A DNA stretch of 64,000 bases from Planctomycetaceae bacterium (GTDB lineage: Bacteria; Planctomycetota; Planctomycetia; Pirellulales; Pirellulaceae), in contig JAHEBQ010000018.1 of the NCBI GenBank assembly GCA_024642205.1, positions 1 to 64,000 of the forward strand, given 5' to 3'. Made by a program: the position numbers and the translations under genes. Under the pieces are notes generated by a model. The model was not told the DNA's origin and did no database searches. It saw only the letters and a program-made list of their open reading frames with translations. Shown here piece by piece: positions 5,446 to 16,543 of the stretch. The first letter of the stretch is position 1. Every line of letters begins with the position of its first letter.

Positions 5446-5808
5446 ATGTCACTTTGGTCAAAGTTGTTCGGCGATCAACGAAAATTTACCGCTGACACGC
5501 CGAAACTGATTCAACAAAACATTGCCGACGGGAAAGCCATCATGCTTGATGTCCGGAGTCAAATCGAATGGGAAAACGGCCATTTGAAAGACGCCATCTT
5601 CATCCCGATCACCACGTTGAAAATGCTCACTCCCGAATCAATCGAAGTCTCGGAGCTGGACTCCGAAAAAATCATTTACTGCCACTGAAAAGCCGGTGGA
5701 CGCGCCGCAGTTGCGGCGGAAATACTGCGCCCGTTGGGCTATGAGGTCCGAGTCATCAAAGACAGTTTCGAACAGCTGGTCGCCTGGGGAATTGAAGCTG
5801 AACTGTAA
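5446..5808 (+). CDS. Rhodanese-like protein, probable selenoprotein (in-frame UGA at active-site position)
   Basis: A single-domain rhodanese read through a TGA at 5686-5688, giving 120 residues with the UGA as residue 81. Upstream is a standard rhodanese N-half with AIMLDVRSQIEWENGHLKDA. The active-site loop reads I-I-Y-C-H-(UGA)-K-A-G-G-R-A, where close relatives have Cys at the UGA position. After the UGA the same frame continues as AAVAAEILRPLGYEV and EQLVAWGIEAEL, ending at TAA 5806. A SECIS-like hairpin lies at 5703-5718. ATG 5446 has AAAAGG about 8 nt upstream. Rhodanese-type sulfurtransferases are among families for which Sec forms have been reported. Alternatives are a TGC/TGT-to-TGA nonsense mutation or an error in the sequence; intact flanking codons and the hairpin favour Sec. 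No frameshift is needed. Confidence 0.75.
5703..5718 (+). promoter_or_regulatory. SECIS-like hairpin downstream of the UGA
   Basis: Perfect 6-bp stem CGCCGC (5703-5708) / GCGGCG (5713-5718) closing the loop AGTT (5709-5712). The stem begins 14 nt and the loop 20 nt after the TGA, within the spacing known for bacterial SECIS elements, and a G is among the first two loop bases (AGUU), as SelB-binding loops usually require. The same bases encode Arg-Ala-Ala-Val-Ala-Ala in the rhodanese, so part of the GC-rich symmetry could be coincidental. Confidence 0.55.
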
Positions 5809-15997: not shown

Positions 15998-16543
15998 TTA
16001 GCCCCGCGCGTCATCTCCTTCTGGATCGAACCAGGATGAGGCCGTGAACCCGGAGGATGGAGCTCTGCTGGTTGCTCCCAGATCGTACCGACCAGGCGCT
16101 GAGTTACGATTTGACCAGTTTTCATTTTCCAGTTCGAACAGCAATTTTAAGGCCGTTACTCAAAAACAAAGTTCGTGGGGTCGGCTCGTCAACAACCCGG
16201 CGCGTGAAGGACTGCAGGATCCCGCCGTCACATTGGCGTTGGTGAACCGAGCACCGGCGCGACCCAGAGCCACATTGTGCAGGATCGGAATCGTCGTTGA
16301 ACCACACAGGCTGGTGTCACGGTAAGTCACGGCAACCGGAATCGTCCGACAGAATCAGGACAACACCAGGCGGTGGATCCGAGCGGTTCGACCGACACCA
16401 TGCTTGTCGATTGACTTGGATCGAATCGCGAAAGAAATCGGCTTGGCCAGATCAGATCACTTCGCCGGATCGTCCTGCGCCAGAGCAATCGCAGACTGCG
16501 AGAACACGACCGCACTGACAATGAGCAACCGGTTGGTTTTCAA
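15998..16543 (-). pseudogene. Decayed sulfatase, internal deletion and stops
   Basis: On the minus strand, pieces of a sulfatase lie in order but out of frame. A start mutated to TTG (16543) leads LKTNRLLIVSAVVFSQSAIA, a signal peptide, to a stop near 16450. Then comes GVVLILSDDSGCRDLP, another stop, TSLCGSTTIPILHNVALGRA, and GARFTNANVTAG with the active-site motif SCSPSRAGLLTSRP, then a stop near 16175. The remaining tail (LFELENENWSNRN, ending at 15998) looks like a sulfatase C-terminus, which implies that most of the middle is deleted. This is inferred by reading frames by eye. It lies just downstream of the divergent DUF1592 gene. Confidence 0.7.

Follow-up and report, generated by a model that had tools for sequence, protein, structure and literature searches.

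A probable selenocysteine-containing rhodanese read through an in-frame TGA in a Planctomycetaceae bacterium

The window, a stretch of 64,000 nucleotides from a Planctomycetaceae bacterium, very probably carries a selenoprotein gene at positions 5446-5808. With high confidence, its product is read as a single-domain rhodanese (sulfurtransferase), probably cytoplasmic, in which selenocysteine (Sec) would replace the catalytic cysteine. The reading frame, the conserved UGA, the Sec machinery of the genome and the selection acting on the codons can be read directly from the sequence, and the rhodanese fold is predicted from a structural model.

Reading frame and rhodanese domain

The frame opened with an ATG at 5446, contained an internal TGA at 5686-5688 and was closed by a TAA at 5806-5808. 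The initial annotation had placed the start, the TGA and the TAA at these positions within a single unshifted frame, and all were found as described. Two features are defined by this frame:

5446..5808, + strand: rhodanese coding sequence, very probably of a selenoprotein, 120 residues, with Sec as position 81 and a TAA stop at 5806-5808 (from the reading frame and Pfam)
5686..5688, + strand: in-frame TGA at the catalytic position, where the UKAGGR active-site loop begins (from the homologue alignment; the same codon is TGA in the G027 and G180 orthologues)

The read-through translation around the TGA was ...EKIIYCH-U-KAGGRAAVAAE..., which includes the His before the loop and the KAGGRA after the TGA that had been pointed out earlier; the His is itself preceded by an ordinary Cys (Cys79). 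Pfam Rhodanese (PF00581) covered residues 18-110 (E 7.7e-14, 52.4 bits against a gathering score of 22.2), so the rhodanese domain spans the TGA, and the rest of the domain is intact beyond it, as had been claimed. Residues 81-84 (U-K-A-G) correspond to the UxxG Sec motif in PF00581. The mechanical ORF list gave an 80-aa ORF here, ending at the UGA; standard ORF calling stops at this codon and would miss the enzyme. Across the window, a mechanical scan listed 49 frames interrupted by TGA, and when the 48 besides 5686 were judged by eye, only 5686 appeared to lie at a catalytic Cys.

Conservation of the TGA and cysteine at the aligned position

Homologues were searched in 147 relatives and then in 241 genomes of the family, with the bacterium's own genome counted in each set. 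The closest match among those listed came from the same genus (G027; 67% identical, one TGA), and the next, in the 241 genomes, from another genus (G180; 54% identical, one TGA). In both orthologues, the TGA occupied the codon aligned with residue 81, and thus the comparison with relatives that the initial annotation had proposed found the TGA at the same site within the genus and outside it. A sequencing or assembly error at 5686-5688 could be suspected in a genome that is a draft of 158 contigs, but the presence of TGA at the same orthologue codon in two other genomes, one of them of another genus, makes this explanation highly improbable.

The residue at position 81 was counted without a motif filter, with the query position masked, using phmmer's own alignment and the best-scoring frame per locus. 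Among the 70 loci, including that of the window, 14 had TGA at this position, 51 had Cys, three lay outside the local alignment and two were gapped beside a Cys; a residue other than Cys or TGA was found in none of the 70 in this alignment. Cys was therefore present in 51 of the 56 homologues without TGA, the other five being unreadable from the alignment, and the assertion that the TGA sits exactly at the catalytic Cys was borne out by this count. The match list from the 241 genomes contained 14 interrupted rhodanese genes at E <= 1e-8, and the TGA stood at the Cys codon in all of them (14/14), with no interruption by TAA or TAG among the 14. The placement of TGA at the Cys codon in interrupted genes is more than chance. 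A dead rhodanese, in which a nonsense substitution struck the catalytic codon and the remainder has not yet decayed, would look the same locally, as one substitution would be enough, but it does not account for the absence of TAA and TAG from the interrupted genes, all of which have TGA at the Cys codon. An ordinary Cys rhodanese in G015 has a TGA ahead of its probable start, away from the Cys, and this one was not counted.

Within this bacterial family, ordinary Cys rhodaneses share the domain and the catalytic position with the window protein at 30-45% identity. They have a KIIYCHC-like strand and a CxxGxR loop, with Cys where the window has Sec. The closest ordinary relative, from G056 (L024), has KIIYCHCESGVRA; ahead of its domain, a VDWSSF stretch resembles the LWSK of the window protein. 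An alignment of 35 rows included 32 ordinary rows picked by motif (Cys81, G84, R86 and the D/E-x-R stretch). Besides position 81, the invariant positions were A31, D35, R37, E41, Y78, G84, R86, L94, G98, R102 and L111, six of which come after the TGA. Invariance at the motif positions proves nothing by itself because the 32 rows were chosen by that motif; L94, G98, R102 and L111 were invariant without having been selected for. Eleven of the 70 loci came from a scan of genome contigs; of these, none had TGA at the position, seven had Cys (L064, L065, L066, L067, L070, L072 and L073) and four were unreadable at position 81 from the alignment (L068, L069, L071 and L074). A protein search of plasmids found Cys-type rhodaneses in 42 records, all below 60% identity, and a search of plasmids for a DNA match to the window gene found none.

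Selection on both sides of the TGA

Between the window gene and its same-genus orthologue, pN was 0.22 before the TGA and 0.14 after it, and the corresponding pS values were 0.73 and 0.79. The dN/dS ratio before the TGA was 0.10; after the TGA, dS was saturated and a ratio is therefore given only for the upstream part. Comparison with the orthologue from the other genus gave a pN of 0.29 and a pS of 0.83 after the TGA. The initial annotation had suggested that selection be measured on the codons after the TGA, and these proportions indicate that amino acids are kept there although silent sites are near saturation (pN far below pS); judged from these sequences, the codons after the TGA are under purifying selection. 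The TGA shared by orthologues of 67% and 54% identity, together with the near-saturated silent sites, indicates that the sequence before and after the TGA has long been kept by purifying selection, which argues strongly against a recently inactivated gene.

These data also bear on the proposal that the UGA is simply a stop and that the 80-residue truncated protein is the functional product. UGA does serve as an ordinary stop elsewhere in the window, but residues 82-120 contain positions invariant in the 35 rows and pN falls far below pS after the TGA. Furthermore, ending at residue 80 would cost the protein its catalytic residue and active-site loop, together with the last strand and two helices seen in the predicted model. 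A functional truncated protein is therefore extremely unlikely, and read-through with Sec is the preferred interpretation.

Selenocysteine machinery and use of UGA in the genome

The initial annotation had named selA, selB, selC and selD as the genes to search for, and all four were found in the same genome, each above its family cut-off: selA (E 2e-172), selB (380 bits), the tRNA-Sec (66.7 bits against a gathering score of 47, anticodon TCA) and selD (E 1.1e-105). The selD gene (L019, G000:C148:34050-34976) itself contained one in-frame TGA, the U of CAGUAGK, and a clear stem-loop, UCGCAC-AGGUC-GUGCGA, follows it. A gene for the alpha subunit of formate dehydrogenase (L094, G000:C28:15475-17487) scored above the cut-off and contained one in-frame TGA somewhere in its frame. 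Both selD and formate dehydrogenase are among the experimentally verified selenoprotein families in the available part of a 2026 inventory (PMC13188914). Selenoproteins in planctomycetes were described for the Porphyra-associated strains P1 and P2, which, according to the accessible text, have Sec machinery and selenoproteins including formate dehydrogenase, as in the genome studied here; the word "rhodanese" is absent from the main text of that paper, whose candidate table is supplementary (PMC4807772).

In the window, 32 mechanical ORFs have a length of 300 aa or more, and 17 of them end in TGA; overlaps between the two strands mean that some of the 32 are not genes. UGA thus also ends other genes and is not simply reassigned. 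The identity of the inserted residue is not distinguishable from sequence alone, so that insertion of a different amino acid, such as Trp or Cys, is conceivable, whether through near-cognate suppression or an altered genetic code; the dedicated Sec machinery, the in-frame TGA also present in the selD and formate dehydrogenase genes, and the termination of other genes at UGA render this reading most improbable. The full machinery likewise counts against a dead gene, and taken with the shared TGA, the interruptions confined to the Cys codon and the selection across the site, it leaves that explanation very unlikely. The original proposal that this gene uses Sec is thus supported by the machinery, the Cys homologues, the conserved TGA and the selection.

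Stem-loop downstream of the TGA

A hairpin was located shortly after the TGA:

5703..5718, + strand: putative apical stem-loop of a bacterial SECIS, with a 6-bp stem and AGUU in the loop (5709-5712)

In the window, 5703-5708 pairs with 5713-5718, and the loop begins 20 nt past the UGA. The same-genus orthologue had a stem-loop of 5 bp with the loop AGUU unchanged, in which five of the six window pairs were kept and one was broken. The orthologue from the other genus had a 6-bp stem-loop at the same place with the loop GGUC; all six pairs were kept (6/6), two of them changed on both sides. Over the three orthologues, 94.4% of cells were paired, and sliding the partner by 1-3 columns lowered this to at most 72.2%. 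The observed pair values were met by 110 of 500 shuffles, and with only three sequences the covariation support is weak. In selD of this genome the loop that follows the TGA is AGGUC, unlike the AGUU of the window gene, and a comparison of the window with Rfam gave no family at gathering scores.

The fold of the 61-nt stretch had a z-score of -1.40. Synonymous recodings were scored for a stem of at least 5 bp, a loop 16-37 nt from the UGA and a G in the first two loop bases, and such a hairpin appeared in 657 of 2000 recodings for the window, 679 of 2000 for G027 and 551 of 2000 for G180; the window stem-loop is therefore not unusual for this peptide. All three orthologues would qualify by chance in about 3% of cases if they were taken as independent, which they are not. 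Under a looser criterion (3 bp, 14-37 nt), a hairpin was present in 13 of 14 TGA genes versus 14 of 42 Cys homologues, the latter being those of the 55 Cys loci that passed the motif filter (Fisher p 1e-4). This difference lies in the direction expected for Sec genes, but the rows are related, and 9 of the 14 TGA genes form one close group. The hairpin as stand-alone proof of Sec was accordingly rejected, in view of the z-score, the 657 recodings and the 110 shuffles. The SECIS-like hairpin invoked by the initial annotation does exist, at 5703-5718, but the further argument that a dead gene would not be expected to preserve one is weaker than it was put: since about a third of synonymous recodings form such a hairpin, it cannot by itself exclude a dead gene. 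To that extent a decaying rhodanese draws some support from a hairpin that, taken alone, is not above chance.

Predicted structure and proposed mechanism

The AlphaFold2 model of the protein had a mean pLDDT of 90.7 and a pTM of 0.82. In the model, a strand (76-80), residue 81 and a helix (85-97) stand at the place of the rhodanese active-site loop, so that the predicted fold is that of a rhodanese with the catalytic residue between strand and helix. The top structural match was 3gk5, a rhodanese-related protein (E 4.9e-07), and the 50 structural matches listed included YgaP and the rhodanese domains of CoA-disulfide reductases and of a persulfide dioxygenase fusion. By sequence, the top PDB match was 6mxv, a rhodanese-like protein. 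The UKAGGR loop has six residues, a length that we take to be associated with sulfur substrates and not with phosphate or arsenate.

In vivo, the ribosome would decode the UGA at 5686 as Sec by means of SelB and Sec-tRNA(UCA), probably using the stem-loop just downstream. As regards the chemistry and the physiological role that we infer, the enzyme probably accepts sulfane sulfur on selenium, forming an Se-S intermediate on the UKAGGR loop, and the sulfur would then be passed to a thiol acceptor. Alternatively, the protein may act as a persulfide or thiol reductase. Inspection by eye showed nothing resembling a signal peptide in the three Sec orthologues, which suggests that the window rhodanese is probably cytoplasmic; many of the ordinary Cys rhodaneses, in contrast, have a signal-peptide-like N-terminus by eye.

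Other TGA-containing rhodaneses and changes between Cys and Sec

In eleven more genomes, rhodaneses of two other groups (loci L053-L062 and L091) had TGA in place of the catalytic Cys codon. A lipoprotein-like group with LYURAGGRAG or a close variant was present in nine genomes (G003, G007, G008, G017, G018, G019, G023, G039 and G259), and an HURxGGRAG group in two (G004 and G006). The G259 gene has a second TGA, which falls after the domain and appears by eye to be its ordinary end. All nine lipoprotein-like genes had a 6-bp stem with a loop AGGUC or AGGUA, 17 nt past the UGA, nearly identical to the selD stem-loop of the window's genome. Of the HURxGGRAG genes, L061 had no hairpin even by the loose definition, and L060 had none by the stricter one.

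Sec genes were detected unevenly in the genomes with a TGA rhodanese, which counts against the Sec reading. G004 (80% complete) had no over-threshold selB or tRNA-Sec and no selA at E <= 1e-60; G259 (77% complete) had no over-threshold selB, and its best tRNA-Sec reached 46.4 bits against the required 47; G027 (88% complete) was without an over-threshold tRNA-Sec. Among the matches listed, at least 12 of the 147 genomes had a TGA rhodanese, and nine of these 12 had selA, the exceptions being G003, G004 and G019; G003 and G019 had selB and tRNA-Sec above the cut-offs, though no selA at E <= 1e-60. Co-occurrence with selA was rejected as support because it does not discriminate: selA was present at E <= 1e-60 in 93 of the 147 relatives, compared with 9 of the 12 genomes with a listed TGA rhodanese.

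A tree was built from 68 rhodanese domains (14 Sec and 54 Cys; the 70 loci minus L074, removed by hand, and one more below the 25-bit limit), with the Sec position coded as X, and its 119 columns left many forks open. The tree requires four changes between Cys and Sec, the well-supported branches also force four, and all lie within this genus and family. The three Sec orthologues clustered with the Cys gene of G056 (support 100/98), and the fork that unites these three alone had a support of 99/20. In the lipoprotein-like Sec group, a Cys-bearing rhodanese was nested (L093, G022:C245), which by its position is likely to represent a return from Sec to Cys. In our reading, the four changes comprise three Cys-to-Sec switches and this one return in G022; their direction depends on the root, which is a midpoint used for drawing only. 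The occurrence of four Cys/Sec changes within genus and family is mildly new, and repeated changes of this kind in one family offer a natural comparison. A more speculative and rather doubtful extension would be that the three switches (CHUKAGGRA in the window, YURAGGRAG in the lipoprotein-like group and HURxGGRAG) and the single return reflect a lineage-wide advantage of selenium-based sulfane-sulfur chemistry, and that the window form might be a perselenide or selenium carrier feeding SelD.

Relation to known selenoproteins

Five rhodanese-like selenoprotein forms appear in the accessible part of the 2026 inventory, where they stand under "Predicted with high confidence" and not among the experimentally verified families; forms 2 and 4 (PF00581) have UxxG (PMC13188914). 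Forms 2 and 4 (representatives MBM9537886.1 and MCY3690685.1) resemble the window gene in the rhodanese domain and in Sec within UxxG (here U-K-A-G), a likeness of domain and motif alone. As UxxG rhodanese-like selenoproteins are already listed there, the window gene belongs to a recognised kind, to which it adds a member. Since rhodanese-like selenoproteins have so far only been predicted in that source, this case is a useful subject: a 13-kDa single-domain Sec rhodanese with Cys counterparts in related species would be a compact object for assessing the contribution of selenium to sulfur transfer.

The earlier statement that rhodanese-type sulfurtransferases had been reported among selenoproteins agrees with these predicted entries and with other descriptions. 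Three sulfurtransferase selenoprotein sequences with a predicted SECIS (COG2897) were described from the Sargasso Sea (PMC1088965), and six were listed in a COG0607 sulfurtransferase group in the GOS data (PMC2398784). As far as their descriptions in these papers go, on which the comparison is based, they are, like the window protein, Sec forms of rhodanese-related proteins with widespread Cys homologues, but they come from marine metagenomes, unlike the window. Three rhodanese-type selenoprotein families are given as predicted in the consulted part of PMC9312934. The NF041203 model (rhodanese_LYCAU, rhodanese-related (seleno)protein) matched the window protein with E 8.3e-6 and 25.5 bits, far below its cut-off of 115; the two share rhodanese homology, whereas the Sec motif of that family is CxU in the available text of PMC13188914 and that of the window UxxG. 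In the full-text literature, two papers contained the words selenoprotein, rhodanese and planctomycet, PMC1794560, in which they stand in separate places, and PMC10340089; the phrase "selenocysteine-containing rhodanese" was not found in the full-text literature. The rhodanese-like Geobacter protein ExtH was set aside, as the selenoprotein of that cluster is given as ExtKL in the portion consulted (PMC5877670).

Genomic context

In the window, the rhodanese gene lies between an upstream sulfatase and a downstream PEP-CTERM protein. By eye, the gene upstream of the same-genus orthologue was sensor-kinase-like, and in the other genus an RtcA-like gene on the opposite strand overlapped the orthologue, with a sulfatase-like gene about 2 kb upstream; neighbour genes hinting at a role were shared by none of the three orthologue loci. 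The gene content included several sulfatases and PEP-CTERM, and Kuenenia was among the nearest named homologues, all of which points to a planctomycete host. On the - strand, a 64-codon frame at 16163-16354 runs into a TGA at 16162 and contains a sulfatase-like CSPSRAGLLTSR stretch. Its similarity to the first part of Pfam Sulfatase was weak, at E 1.4e-4 and 21.7 bits where the gathering score is 25, and it looks like the remnant of a broken sulfatase gene.
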